From Terfezia claveryi (taxonomy: Eukaryota > Ascomycota > Pezizomycetes > Pezizales > Pezizaceae), in NCBI GenBank assembly GCA_015179025.1, contig WHUX01000236.1, forward strand, positions 1-64,000: a DNA stretch of 64,000 bases. The letters are read 5' to 3'. This document shows, piece after piece, positions 4,813 to 11,889 of this stretch. The number at the start of each line of letters is the position of its first letter. Position 1 is the stretch's first letter. A program made the position numbers and the translations under genes. The notes beneath the pieces are model-generated. The model made no database searches. It worked only from the letters and a program-made list of their open reading frames with translations, and was not told the DNA's origin.

Positions 4813-6507
4813 CAGATTTTTTTTTGCTGATGAGTCTTTCTCCTGTTCCCTGTATAATGGTCAGGCTTGGCAGAAAGCTTGGCTATCAGCTGAGAGGGCC
4901 TTATAAGGTTCTTCCTCGGCCATTCTTCCTCTTCTTCCTCTTCCCAAGTCCTTTCTGCTATTCTTACTCTTCCCAAGTCCTTTCCGCCATCCTTAAACAA
5001 CAATAATCTTCCCTCATCATCTCTTCCTTGCTATTCAATACTAGTACCTAAGGTAATTCCTCGACGGTGGTTCCAAAGAGGCTTTACTTGTAAAGAATAG
5101 CAAGGAGCTTAGAGATTTTTGTGGGGGCTTGTACCAAATCAGACCACTCAGAAGTTTAACCGAGTAGTCTCGATCAGACCCTCATAGTTATTGTAGAGGG
5201 TGTAACTACTACCTACAACCCTCTTGATGCTCATAGATGGAAATAAAAATAAGATACAACTGAAAGTAAAAAAAATTTATAAAAATAAAAATTAAAAAAT
5301 TAAAAAAAAAGAAACTTATATGTGTGTGTCTCCGGCACGTGGTGGCATTATTCTCTATTCTCTATTACCAGTCTGTTACAGACTCCGAAATTTTGAAAAG
5401 CCCTTTTGCTCATCCGTAAGGTTCCGCAGCTGGGCATCATCGCTAGTCATCTAATTAGCCCATGACATAGACACCAGTTTCCTATTCTTCTTTGTTCTCA
5501 AAGTAACCAGCATATTCCTATGATTTGGGTATCCTCATTATCTTCCTCAATCCAACAGCGATGCAGCCGTATGTAGAACTACAATTCGTGTCTGCCTTGG
5601 AGGTGTCTGTGTGGTAGGGATGCTGGGGTTAGTACCTGCTGAGGTGTTGGTTGGTTCCTGTGGAGGTTTCGGAAAAGTTGGCGGTGGTCGTTGGCGTACT
5701 TCTTGTTCTTTCCTTGATGTCACTGCCGTTTTGGGGGGGGCGTAGTCTGGGAACTGGGGCCGTTATTGGGGTTCAGTTACGGAAATTTTGTACTGTACAA
5801 TAGCTATTTGGGTATCAAAACATACAGGTAGCAGAAAGGCGGTGGCGAGAAGGCGAAGTAGTTGGATTTGTCTAGTTTAGCTTGTAAACTGAAGGCCAGT
5901 TTTCTTGCCTTTTCTATACTTCCTCCAAATTCTATTGGCTATATTGTTCCCAATTCAAGATATATAACACAGAATCACACACCCACACGCAGTCATTTTA
6001 GACTGTCACCTGAACTCTATAGAGAACATCTACTTAGTCAGAGAGCGGACAATCATTGTACTAGCACTGTTCTATGATAGAAGGGCCTGAGACTGGAGAA
6101 CAGAAAGACAGGATATAATTTGTGCCGGCGTTGGTCGGTGATTGCCTTTGATAGCACCAAGTTGCATATTTGGTATGTATCCTGCGAAATAGGCGGTGCT
6201 AGGTACATGGTTCACGTTTATGCGTTATAGTTACACTGAGTTTTGCGTACCATACTGGAAAATCGCACTCTGAGATTGAAATATGCTATGTAAGTACGCT
6301 TAGCTGCACGGACGGGTGACCAAACCCTCAAGTAGATCATTATCCTCTTAAGGTTCGTTTCTTTGTTGAATTTTGATCTTCTATGCTCCGTTCTCAGTGG
6401 TCGTGAATGACATGAGAAGGCGTGACGATCTTACAATTCAATTGATAAAATCATTCAACATAACCCGAAAGGAAAGAAAAAGTATATCAAGTCGAAGTGT
6501 ATGTCGT
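4813..6507. other. Intergenic, no gene seen
   Basis: I see ordinary-composition DNA with short A-rich and C/T-rich tracts (for example the A/T run at 5265-5310) and no open frame with recognisable protein features. The right end is the 3' flank of the H4 gene. Confidence 0.5.
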
Positions 6508-6963
<456 letters not shown>

Positions 6964-7457
6964 TTAATGTGTATTAAAAAGATGAGCTTTGCTTATGACG
7001 TGAAGGAGAAGACGCGTTGTTGTCGTGTTGTTCGTTTGTTGTCGTTGAAATGCTAAGAGAGAGAAAAAAAGAGAAGAAGAGGGCGGAATGAGTGGGTATT
7101 TTAAAATTCGGCGGGGCGGCTGTTGATGCGAGCAAAATCAATGGAATACACGAAAACCGGGGCTCGGTCATGCTGCCTTGGGGCCAACCTGGTAAGTGTG
7201 CATGCACCATCTTGCGCTAACGCGACAGTAGTTGCGCTGGCTATGAGAGCTCCTATCCCCTAACCCCAACCCCAAGAGGTATTCCAGTCGCCAACCAGCG
7301 TGCCAACCAGACTAAGCAAGCTAGACTAGCCAACCCCCGAATCCCGGGTTAGGGGTGCTTCCAAGACATCCGAGAATTACCCAAAGACGCAATTAGCGAA
7401 AGCCCTAGATTAGTGTACTGCAATAGTCTATTATGCGGAGTATTTGTGAACAGCTTA

Positions 7458-7486
7458 GTCGAGGGGCTTGTGCAAACCAGACTAGG
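7458..7486 (+). repeat. Dispersed 29-bp motif, copy in the H4/H3 spacer
   Basis: This 29-bp segment begins gtcgaggggcttgtgc and ends aaccagactagg. It matches 9500-9528 at all but one position. Shorter forms occur elsewhere in the window. Confidence 0.8.
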
Positions 7487-8339
7487 AACAGCTGTATATC
7501 CTCAGCAGCTCAATAAATAGATAAACGGTGGTGCTCTCGTCAAATATAGCCTCTTGAAGAGTGGGGTGAGACAGAAATGGGATAGCATCGTTAATGCAGG
7601 AGTTATGGTGCGGCTGCACACCTGTCCGAAGTCGCTGTCATATTAAAGGCTGCAGCTTGGGATGAAAAAAACTAGTATGCGTCATCTCTGTGCATAAGTG
7701 TCCCGATTACAGGCGCTATTCTCGCATTTTCCTACGAGGGTCTGATCGAGACTAGCATTTTCCACAGATCGATAGACCATATATTCATATATATACAACT
7801 ATATCAGATCTCTAGGTTGACATAAATACAGTAGGATCTATATTCAGCATGTGACTCATTGATGAGAATACTAAGTAAATAACTTGTACACAAAGTGTTG
7901 TGTGTATGTATCAGTATTGTTAGATATCAATCCTGCTTGCTTTTTTCTCAGGATCCGATATGAAACGCTCATGCCGACTGACCGCTCAAAGAAGCATAGC
8001 AGCGCCTGCGTCCCCAAATCCCAAGCGATTGCACGTCTGGGCCGGAGGCTGGTGTGGGGCGTGCTGGTTGGTGGTAGGCTGCAAGGGCTCCATCACGGCA
8101 GCATCAGCGGCGCTACGGTCTGGGATAAACCGCGCTAGCACCAGGCTTGGCTGGCCATCCGCCAGCGTTTTGCGCTCCAAAATTGGGGCCAGGTTTCCCA
8201 CCAAAAATAAGAGCTGGAAAAGTGAACGGAAAGCGAACATTGCAACGAAGAAAAAAATGTATGTGGAAAAATGGTTGCTTTGGTCTTGCTCCGTCACCCC
8301 TTGATTGATGCGACTCACCGCCCCACGCTAAAATCCTCC

Positions 8340-8346
8340 TATAAAG
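8340..8346 (+). promoter_or_regulatory. Putative TATA box of histone H3
   Basis: TATAAAG sits 106 bp before the H3 start codon, within a pyrimidine-rich leader (ttccttcctttcctttc) that resembles highly expressed fungal promoters. Confidence 0.5.
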
Positions 8347-8451
8347 AGGCACCCGCCCACCTTCCTTCCTTTCCTTTCTTCCATCCACTCGACACAATCA
8401 TTCCCCACTTAAATTAAATCATCAACACATCAACACAGCAACACATCTATA

Positions 8452-9081
8452 ATGGCCCGTACTAAGCAGACTGCCCGTATGTACCTCTTTATTATTATAT
8501 CATCGCGCCTTAATTAACACATCGGCCATAGGTAAATCCACCGGTGGTAAAGCACCCCGTAAGCAGATCAAGCAGCAATTCCAACAGGCTGCCCACAAGG
8601 TCGCTCGCAAGGTCGCTCACACCTCCAACTCTGGGTAAGCCCTTTAGACGTCTTCCTGGTTATTATATCGCGTGTATCCTACAGCAGCAAAAACTAATTC
8701 ATCTTAAATAGTGGTGTCAAGAAACCTCACAGGTATAAGCCTGGTACCGTCGCTCTCCGTGAGATCAGACGTTACCAGAAGTCCACCGAGCTGTTGATCC
8801 GAAAGCTTCCCTTCCAACGTTTGGTCCGTGAGATCGCTCAGGACTTCAAGTCCGATCTCCGCTTCCAGTCTTCTGCCATCGGTGCTCTCCAGGAGTCCGT
8901 TGAGGCTTACCTTGTCTCTCTCTTTGAGGACACCAACTTGTGCGCCATCCATGCCAAGGTAAATATATATTCTCTCTCACCCTTTCCGCATTGCAATGTT
9001 CTTACATTTTTGTCACAGCGTGTCACCATCCAGTCCAAAGATGTCCAACTTGCCCGCAGGCTCCGTGGCGAGCGCTCTTAG
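8452..9081 (+). CDS. Histone H3 with an extended, divergent N-terminal tail
   Basis: There are four exons: 8452-8476, 8532-8634, 8712-8958 and 9019-9081. Introns are 55, 77 and 60 nt, all GT-AG, and codon phases agree throughout. The product is 145 residues including Met, against the usual 136. From the KKPHRYKPG block through to RRLRGERS the fold is essentially canonical, so this is not a CENP-A-type variant. Residues 1-19 (K4, K9, K14, K18) are also canonical. Between Q19 and the GGVKK block there are 22 residues instead of 13: an IKQQFQQ insertion followed by [15 protein letters not shown]. The usual ARKS around K27 is ARKV. Codons in the novel stretch (AAG, CAG, GTC, CGC, ACC) match the rest of the gene. 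Confidence 0.94.
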
Positions 9082-11889
9082 GTGCCTCCCACCGAATAAA
9101 CTCATGTTTCGCAATCCAACCTCTGATCATGTCTACTCTCCGGAGATCAGATTGTGTTGACAGCCTTGTCACGCGAAATTGGGTTATTTGTCTTTAGCAA
9201 AGTTTGTTTAAAATTCTTCGGTCTTACACAATCCGGGTAGGGGGTTCAAGTTTGGTTTGACATGAAATGAAATGGGTCTGCTTTTGTGTTCTTAACGGTT
9301 TCTTTTGCTCGGTTGGGGTTCTTTTTTTTTTCCTGGGCAATACTTACATCTATTTGTTATGGAGTGCCTCTGTAATGGACCTGAGAAGGTGGGGTGACTG
9401 CCACTTGTACTATAGCTAAATCATCTAACGTTCTGTTTACAGAATTTTGACCTCTGGTCTTCCGTTACGATGCTTCTGTGGATGTCCTGGTGTCTCCTGG
9501 TCGAGGGGCTTGTGCCAACCAGACTAGGTGTCTCCCTGCCTTCTCATCTCTTCCGATCATCTGAGTAATGCATAAGACAATGTCAGATCCCGTCTACACA
9601 ATATTTGTTAAACGACCCGAAATACACTTTTACTTGAATTACCGAAGATACTCAAGTTCTTAATATTATCCTAACCTAAGCCCATCAGAACGCCTTGAGG
9701 TTCCGGCTTCTGCTCTTTCACGTGTATTTCTGCTCTTGCTGCTATTCTGTGACCGTCGTAGTGCTCGCCAAAATGCCAATGGATAACTACGTTATGCAAA
9801 TATTTGACTGACTCTTGGTCACCTTAAGCCATTGGTTTCTGCTAGTCAGGTGTGTGACTAGCCCAGGCGATACCGTGCCTTATATGAGACATCTCTTGTT
9901 GCGTCATTGACCTTTCTTCTTCCCTCTCGTACTGAAACCAAGTCAAGGCGAGACTAAATAGCCCTTCGGATGTGAAAGTTGTATTTTGTTGTATTTCGTT
10001 CTATGGCCCTAGTGCTAATACCTAGCTACTTATTATAAGCAGGAATTTCAACTTGCTTATATACTGTCATAAATCCTGGATATGACAATAAACAGCTTAT
10101 ATGTGGTGGTTGCATGATCTACAGAAGTAACTAATTAGTAACAATACTATAAGTGCAAGTGGTCTAGTTAAATACAGATTAACTGTAAGGACTTTACTGT
10201 TTATATAAGTATTTAGTTCTCATGCTAACTAGACTAATTACTAGTAGCTAAGTACATATTTTATATCTACTAGTTTAGTTAGCACTAGCCTGTTATATAT
10301 TAGTCTAGTTGTACAACTACCTCTTACTCTAATAGTAAAAGTAATATTATATAAATAATTAGAGGTTTGGTATAAGACTAATTCTTTATAGACTATAATA
10401 CTAGTACTATACTAATTATAGATTAAGTTATCTTTAACTTATATATATTTGTTATAAACTCTCCTAAACTATAACTATAATCTTGACTTAACTAATAACT
10501 TTAAACTTAATTTTGACTTAGACTATAATATTACTAGCAACTTATATACTTACCTATTTAAGTACTATCACTGATTATATTTAAACTTGTGATATTACTA
10601 TCAAATATTGGTATGACTCTTAACTTATAAACTTTGATACTTACTAGTAACCTATAAAACTTATAATAGTTATACTAGATATTAGCATGAACTTATAATG
10701 TATGAACCTTAATACTCTACCAATAACTTATATATTTACTTATATAAGTATACTAGCTTAAAAAACTTAACTTTGCTCTTGACTAGTATAGCTACTGACT
10801 ATATCTTAAAAAACCTAACTAGATATCTTATTTAATTAAGGGATCTACTAGATCGATCTAGTAAAATAACCTTATATTTCTAGAACCTTATTTTGTACTT
10901 GATTCTATTTTAAGAGTTAAACCAAAACTTATCAAACTCTTAAAAAGGAAACTTTTTAAACTTATATCTATACTTCTACTTTTTTAAACTTCTAGTTTAA
11001 AACTTAAATAGGAATCTGTCTGACTCTTATTCTTATAATATTTATCTTTCATTTATTTATTTTTTCTAGTATATTATAAATTTATTTTCAGAGTTAAACT
11101 AAAACCTATCTAACTCTCAAAAAGAAACCCTCTTTATTTAGTATTTGCCTTATATATTCTAAATATTTATATGTACTTAATTGTATAACCCTTTAATTTA
11201 TACTTAATTGGGATATTTAACAATCATACTAGATATTAGCATAACCCTCAAAATAAGAACTAAATTTTCTATTAAAAGAATCTACTTCTCTACTTTATAT
11301 AGTCTTTTCTTATTATATAATAACTTGTTTACTATTTCTATAAAGAAACTTAAGTTTACTACTAAATAACAGCATACTTATATAATTTCATCCTCAAAGT
11401 CTTGCTTTATCTTCTTCTTTACTTTCTACTTTTCACTATACTCTTTTTTATATCTAGAAAGTAAGATACTTACTACTTCTCATAGTAATCTTTTTGTTTA
11501 TACTACTATTTACTTCTTCTAACTATATCTAGTCTCTTTCATTTACCTTCTAATCTAGAAACTACTCTAGAACCTTAAATTTATAACCTAGCCTGGTATA
11601 TGGACTAGAAGCTATACTACTACTACTAAACTAGCTTGTTTGAATATATCTCTAAATATCTTATATTAGATTTAGAAATAGATAAGTTTAATACTAATAT
11701 ACTTAGTCTATAAGTCCCCCACTCTTACAGACAGCTTGTACTATCTATTTTAACAACTTCCTACCCTACAGGCATCCTTCTTATAGACAAATTTATAGTT
11801 GATTCACTATTCTTATCTCCTATTCTCTTCTGTACTATATTGTATATCTCTAAGAAAAAAGAGATAACTTGAGCTCCTATATCCTCCTC
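9082..11889. other. H3 3' flank, then AT-rich relic without a gene
   Basis: Up to about 9650 the sequence is ordinary and holds the H3 3' flank plus one copy of the dispersed 29-bp motif. From about 10020 it becomes strongly AT- and TpA-rich with almost no CpG, typical of the decayed repeats elsewhere in the window. I recognise no protein motif in 10020-11889. Confidence 0.5.
9500..9528 (+). repeat. Dispersed 29-bp motif, copy 3' of histone H3
   Basis: This copy begins gtcgaggggcttgtgcc and ends aaccagactagg. It is embedded between two gtgtctcc-type words. Confidence 0.8.

Follow-up and report, generated by a model that had tools for sequence, protein, structure and literature searches.

An elongated, variable tail segment around K27 in the histone H3 of Terfezia claveryi, shared across sampled Pezizaceae

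Introduction

Histone H3 is normally among the most unchanging proteins known, and H3 tails are usually regarded as fixed.

Departures from this pattern have been described at some distance from the case reported here. A passage in a survey of H3 evolution (PMC2939574) gives the K9 and K27 motifs as absent from two dinoflagellate H3s, so that divergent tails are already known in protists. In Pyrenophora tritici-repentis, the part of PMC3538342 dealing with H3L presents it as an H3-like protein borne on hAT elements and carrying insertions in its tail. The centromeric variant CENP-A (CenH3) retains the histone fold, while its core and tail have diverged.

We have analysed a 64-kb stretch of DNA from Terfezia claveryi (here called the window, which lies on contig C153 of the assembly) that carries an H3 gene with an altered tail. 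The predicted protein agrees with canonical fungal H3 in its core, in the residues up to Q19, in the sequence from GGVKKPHR onward and in the pairing of its gene with H4. It departs from it between Q19 and GGVKK, where 22 residues replace the canonical 13, in having Val in place of S28 (residues 25–28 read ARKV, not ARKS), in the distance from K27 to K36, which is 11 instead of 9, and in one additional lysine. With the Pyrenophora H3L it shares the H3-like nature and the insertions in the tail; however, as far as the same part of PMC3538342 describes it, H3L is repeat-borne and has a diverged core, whereas the H3 of the window is a single-locus housekeeping gene. With CENP-A it has the histone fold in common. 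The Terfezia H3 is an undescribed form of a well-known protein and occurs throughout a group of related fungi; what is special about it is the combination, within filamentous fungi, of a canonical core with a single fast-changing spacer.

Structure of the H3 gene and its H4 neighbour

Reading of the DNA and joining at GT-AG borders predicts an H3 of 145 aa, encoded by four exons between positions 8452 and 9081 of the plus strand, with the frame open throughout. The elements of the locus are as follows (window positions).

6508..6963 (outer limits approximate), minus strand: H4 gene with introns, divergent from H3
6964..8451, no strand: intergenic region shared by H4 and H3, about 1.5 kb, from the DNA
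8452..8476, plus strand: H3 exon 1 (MARTKQTA and the first base of the R8 codon), donor GTATGT
8532..8634, plus strand: H3 exon 2, holding the rewritten segment, acceptor ATAG, donor GTAAGC
8567..8587, plus strand: IKQQFQQ codons immediately 3' of Q19, including the extra lysine, from DNA and alignment
8588..8632, plus strand: remaining codons of the rewritten segment, after IKQQFQQ, from DNA and alignment
8597-8599, plus strand: K23-equivalent codon
8609-8611, plus strand: K27-equivalent codon
8612-8614, plus strand: S28-equivalent codon, encoding Val
8712..8958, plus strand: H3 exon 3 (GVKKPHR to HAK), canonical core, from DNA and alignment
9019..9081, plus strand: H3 exon 4, ending in the stop codon, from DNA and alignment

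The Pfam Histone family matches the protein with 153.3 bits. An initial annotation of the locus had described a canonical fold, a tail canonical up to Q19 and, before GGVKK, a rewritten stretch nine residues longer than normal that holds K23, K27 and S28, with ARK kept, S28 replaced by Val, the spacing to K36 altered and the gene paired divergently with H4. The DNA reading, an alignment of 13 elongated H3s and an H4 query (see below) bear out these points. Splicing out of the insert was considered and rejected, as the sole donor-like and CAG pair spotted by eye in exon 2 would remove 29 nt and is out-of-frame.

Two copies of the motif GAGGGGCTTGTGCNAACCAGACTAG lie on the same strand of the window (7461-7485 and 9503-9527), one about 1 kb upstream of H3 and the other about 0.4 kb downstream; the expected count of the motif is 0, a figure to be read with the fact that the motif was chosen after both copies had been seen.

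Search for further H3 genes

When the whole assembly (72,558,070 bases in 794 contigs) was searched with an H3 core query, 63 matches were obtained. The best was the window gene (168.1 bits) and the second (100.6 bits) a CENP-A-like gene on contig C773, assigned from its sequence, with an open frame of 227 aa; the other 61 were weak, at 29.1 bits or less. Of 18 weak matches that were inspected, frames were read for 11, which belong to a single dispersed H3-like family (described at the end of this report); the remaining 7 are on the opposite strand. A query with the H3 tail retrieved the window gene and, weakly, the CENP-A-like gene, and nothing else. As a control, an H4 query retrieved the paired gene, another H4 encoded by a single open frame on C446, and diverged H4-like pieces on C787. 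Across the whole 72.6-Mb assembly, the core and tail queries found no canonical-type H3 besides that of the window. Together with the H4 pairing, this agrees with the initial annotation, which had taken the gene for the main H3 and not for a stray variant.

Two other identities were tried for the gene and rejected: it is not a CENP-A, as its core is canonical and a CENP-A-like gene lies elsewhere, and it is not a transposon-borne H3L, as it occupies a single locus and is not part of a multi-copy repeat.

The H4-like pieces at C787:171222-171523 belong to a diverged protein that is 53-56% identical to H4.

Distribution and variability of the segment

The elongated tail is not special to Terfezia claveryi. 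An identical sequence is listed as histone H3 for T. claveryi (NCBI) and T. boudieri (UniRef); the database entry comprises 3 sequences and 8 contigs, and the letter-by-letter identity of every member is assumed. The H3 of Tirmania nivea is 99% identical to that of Terfezia, and elongated segments recur in Peziza echinospora and Kalaharituber pfeilii, so that all 5 named Pezizaceae species in the homologue listing, and 9 further entries, have elongated, mostly different H3s of 141-145 aa. Family membership follows NCBI taxonomy, T. boudieri being placed by its genus; a passage in PMC10455484 assigns Terfezia to the Terfeziaceae. Judged from these protein sequences, the rewritten segment is common to the Pezizaceae sampled.

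For a closer comparison, 21 of the 120 listed homologues were aligned with P0001. Of the resulting 22 sequences, 13 are of the elongated type; the nine rows that were dropped (P0046, P0069, P0072, P0074, P0076, P0080, P0084, P0089 and P0092) include some with smaller additions. Variation among the 13 is concentrated in the segment, where 19 of 23 columns are variable against 1 of 123 elsewhere (hypergeometric P 5e-19, a descriptive value only, since an elongated segment was the criterion by which the 13 had been chosen). The segment sequence varies from genus to genus, and the Terfezia and Tirmania proteins are the longest of the set.

Within this variable stretch, K23, A25, R26 and K27 are the only residues invariant in all 13 forms, and the distance from K23 to K27 is always 4. 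The flanking distances are extended: K18 and K23 are 8-12 apart (canonical 5), and K27 and K36 are 11 apart in 11 forms and 12 apart in the other two (canonical 9). Every form has three lysines in the segment, where canonical H3 has two; the extra one lies two or three residues after Q19. Seven forms have V at position 28, 2 have T, and I, S, H and N occur in one each; S28 is lost in 12 of the 13, and a phosphorylatable residue in 10. At position 30, H is found in 7 (Terfezia included), Q in 1 and P in 5, which amounts to loss of P30 in 8 of 13.

Comparison with other H3 proteins

A set of 129 listed H3-type proteins, of which 117 were parsed and 12 were not, served to judge how unusual this is; the listing is ordered by similarity to the query and is no fair sample of eukaryotic H3. 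Between Q19 and GGVKK, 95 of the 117 have the 13-residue segment. A segment of at least 18 residues combined with a K27-K36 distance of 11-12 occurs, among the 117 parsed matches listed, solely in the 13 Pezizaceae-type forms, and a second homologue search, run with the alignment of the 13, brought up no other H3 with a segment of 18-22 residues and this distance among the 120 matches listed. The longer distance is not in itself unique: four other listed fungal-type H3s, P0076, P0080, P0092 (Nadsonia) and P0094 (Melampsora), share the span of 11-12 with Terfezia by way of 2-3 extra residues from K27 to K36. They differ from it in keeping S28, in a segment of 15-16 residues and in having nothing added before K23. 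Conversely, P0033 and P0074 have a long segment with a normal span.

The full-text literature on this tail and on desert-truffle chromatin, a scope mostly outside subscription papers, yielded no description of such an H3 tail.

Some of the listed proteins show peculiarities of their own. P0074 (ENA) is a 154-aa H3 in which an internal duplication has produced two K9-like and two K14-like stretches. In P0069 (Golovinomyces cichoracearum) a three-residue insertion precedes ARKS, LASKADKKARKSAPST. S28 is replaced by Ala (P0072, P0089) or Gly (P0098) in canonical-length H3s of Onygenales.

The K27 methylation machinery

A search of the assembly with the SET domain of human EZH2 identified an E(z)-type gene on contig C76, a relative of KMT6/EZH2. 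Its predicted CXC-SET region, with exons intact, has EZH1 and EZH2 as best PDB matches (E 7e-64 and 6e-63), followed at a distance by the next SET family (4e-21); the call covers these CXC-SET exons. The Kalaharituber E(z) is 77% identical to that of Terfezia over the part that aligns, its gene model being without the CXC and part of the SET domain. Loss of PRC2 as the cause of the rewriting is not supported, as the E(z) gene is present.

Rhizina has the NHS motif of the SET domain, where Terfezia and Kalaharituber have NHY. We considered whether this might reflect co-evolution of E(z) with the altered H3 and rejected it, as the motif varies among E(z) relatives: the 111 of 120 listed that fit the NHS-type pattern have NHS (83), NNS (13), NHA (11), NHQ (2), NHR (1) and NHY (1), the other 9 being unmatched by it.

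The candidates for the other subunits are weaker than E(z). A SUZ12-like VEFS-box match on C723 reaches 25.3 bits (Pfam cut-off 23); it is short (36 of 137 positions) and has a stop in frame, and the Zn_SUZ12 match of this candidate is below cut-off. A passage of PMC9018016 reports PHD-bearing VEFS-box proteins from across the Pezizomycetes. A putative EED-like piece, an exon-sized match on C457, is 59% identical over 58 aa to an approximate fungal-like probe, for which it ranked first; with a human EED probe, generic WD40 matches come out on top and the C457 candidate is weak, at rank 21 of 40.

The VEFS-box stretch is found on C720 as well as on C723, with the same score, and one of these may be a duplicated or second-haplotype contig.

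The K27 context and its recognition

The initial annotation had concluded that, with Val at position 28, the mark recognised by K27 methyltransferases and readers is gone. This is not supported. In its passage on substrate preference, PMC9255955 describes A25-R26-K27-S28 as the core sequence that the SET domain reads, and gives F, Y or H as the residues that human PRC2 prefers at position 28, so by this list Ser is not required at this position. Measured against that preference list, which consists of data for human PRC2, the Terfezia positions 24, 25, 26 and 29 fit and position 28 is a misfit, as it is in canonical H3; both proteins obtain the same score. A Ser at the position following the methylated lysine is likewise unneeded for reading, as EED binds Jarid2 K116me3 with Phe there (a passage in PMC4352895). 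The same passage reports that F117A abolished binding; this residue thus matters to EED in Jarid2, and Val at this position may or may not be accepted.

Structural data on human PRC2 bear on the residues beyond K27. The section of PMC7725500 on the H3 tail describes it as extended from R26 to K37, with K36 at the EZH2-DNA interface and contacts to A29/P30 and V35, and terms G33/G34 a likely unrecognised flexible hinge. The five EZH2 residues that it lists as contacting A29/P30 (F667, A697, V699, I708 and F724) are all retained in Terfezia E(z). At the V35 contact (human F542, F557 and P558) Terfezia E(z) has M, W and R, at 569/570 near K36 it has T and A, and at the R26 contacts Q648/D652 it has N and E. 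At most of these sites the E(z)s of Geoglossum and Lipomyces, the two other fungal ones that cover them, depart from human as well. Given these changes at the V35 and R26 contacts and near K36, the human geometry may not carry over. The loss of P30 in 8 of 13 forms would also speak against an unchanged PRC2 grip.

With the A25-R26-K27 core in all 13 forms and an E(z) gene in its genome, Terfezia probably retains K27 methylation. The initial annotation had further argued that K27-type silencing would have to differ in this fungus if this is its only H3. The premise agrees with our search, and the K27 context is indeed changed; the change is shared with related fungi and is not peculiar to Terfezia. 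As far as the aligned proteins tell, what really differs is the lost S28 phosphorylation site, the K27-K36 spacing and one extra lysine.

Discussion

Of several possible explanations, we favour one that we consider probable as a whole, namely that the window encodes the bulk (replication-type) H3, that the Q19-G33 stretch of this protein is a spacer of variable length and sequence in the sampled Pezizaceae, and that PRC2 still methylates the K27-equivalent. The core and the known modifiable lysines K4, K9, K14, K18, K23, K27, K36 and K37 remain in place. The additions lie in parts of the tail for which no grip by human PRC2 is described: 2-3 residues between P30 and G33, adjoining the G33/G34 hinge, and the rest before K23, outside the human model. 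Loss of S28 would remove a phosphorylation switch, the longer K27-K36 span may loosen the coupling of K36 methylation to PRC2, the surroundings of K27 would become less like the ARKS motif at K9, and one additional lysine would be gained after Q19. For Terfezia itself we infer K27 methylation, an altered coupling to K36 and a loss of phospho-switching.

A further-reaching proposal would be that the only bulk H3 has been re-engineered around K27, with A-R-K frozen, the distance to K36 increased by 2-3, the S28 switch removed in most forms and a new lysine fixed after Q19. Neither K36 methylation nor S28 phosphorylation would then be coupled to K27 silencing, and PRC2 would have a geometry unlike that of the model PRC2s studied. 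We put this forward tentatively, as it is rather unlikely to be correct. Both this proposal and the favoured explanation lose a little weight through the longer K27-K36 spans of other H3s and the altered E(z) contact residues.

The many substitutions and indels in the segment, together with the frequent loss of S28, of any phosphorylatable residue at 28 and of P30, could also be read as relaxed constraint, in which Pezizaceae PRC2 no longer acts on H3K27, because it works elsewhere or is dispensable, and the segment drifts without function. The three Onygenales entries with Ala or Gly at 28 point in the same direction, as this is an order of the Eurotiomycetes, in several species of which E(z) has been lost according to a passage in PMC9692433; that report applies at class level, and the species of the three entries may or may not be among those concerned. 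Drift is difficult to reconcile, however, with K23, A25, R26 and K27 being strictly kept at constant K23-K27 spacing in all 13 forms, and with the persistence of an E(z) with intact CXC-SET exons that has a relative in Kalaharituber, 77% identical over the part that aligns. We therefore consider relaxed constraint unlikely.

Selection could instead have favoured the longer span and the loss of S28, either for PRC2 activity on K36-methylated or phosphorylated chromatin or for a separation of K9 and K27 readers. The extended span is found in all 13 forms, human PRC2 is described as positioning K27 via contacts back to K36 along an extended tail (the section of PMC7725500 cited above), and S28 phosphorylation is described in PMC9255955, in the part on this residue, as diminishing K27 methylation. 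Yet the four other listed H3s with spans of 11-12 keep S28, which suggests that hinge additions may be merely tolerated; the NHY change in E(z) is no special signal, and the argument is one from protein comparison. To such an adaptive decoupling we assign a low probability.

It is very improbable that the window gene is a specialised variant and that the main canonical H3 is absent from the assembly. The latter is in 794 contigs and comes with no completeness statement, but it does yield two H4 genes and the CENP-A-like gene, the core and tail queries brought up no further H3 of canonical type, and the window gene sits in a divergent H4-H3 pair. An assembly or gene-model artefact, of which the initial annotation had been wary, is extremely unlikely: the gene model was read from DNA, its borders are GT-AG and its frame is open, the sequence has database records as histone H3 under two Terfezia species names and recurs at 99% in Tirmania, and other entries provide a graded series of related tails.

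These fungi offer a natural series in which the K18-K36 spacing varies within one family while the target lysines and the E(z) gene are kept. K27-K36 spans of 9, 11 and 12 are a ready-made set for asking if PRC2 uses K36 as the point from which it measures K27, while position 28, with S, T, V, I, H or N, lends itself to asking if S28 is a needed switch. On a practical level, an absent H3K27me3 signal in these fungi could mislead, as antibodies directed at the canonical K27 peptide may not work there.

A dispersed H3-like repeat and the remaining window content

The dispersed family encountered in the H3 core search is a repeat of at least about 4.6 kb that carries an H3-like ORF beside two ORFs of about 170 and about 300 aa.

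L003-L020, L030-L052 and L072-L075: H3-like repeat (example L075:1234-6489)
L075:4682: start of the tail (MAGTKQRAR) of the H3-like ORF
L075:4846-5151: histone fold of the H3-like ORF
C153:71996-72550: ORF fragment of the repeat, on the same contig beyond the window

There are up to 61 H3-like places, part of which were inspected, and the 300-aa ORF gives 132 match rows, which are fragments and not copies, many with stops. Four loci that were compared are 66-96% identical in their DNA. The repeat resembles the hAT-borne H3L of Pyrenophora tritici-repentis as portrayed in that part of PMC3538342, and may represent another instance of a mobile histone H3, larger than the first. The hAT family was not found in the five repeat ORF pieces scanned, the ~170- and ~300-aa ORFs match no Pfam family over cut-off, and a search for convincing terminal repeats found none; one 19-bp inverted pair of 84% identity spans the unit (L075:1365-1383 and 5847-5865).

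In the 64-kb window itself, tRNA and Rfam scans returned nothing. It contains 16 open frames of at least 160 aa, several of which match gypsy- or copia-type retroelement families, while two match a PRMT3-like protein and one a SWIB domain. Between 30 and 50 kb there are AT-rich stretches with a GC content of about 0.21-0.29.
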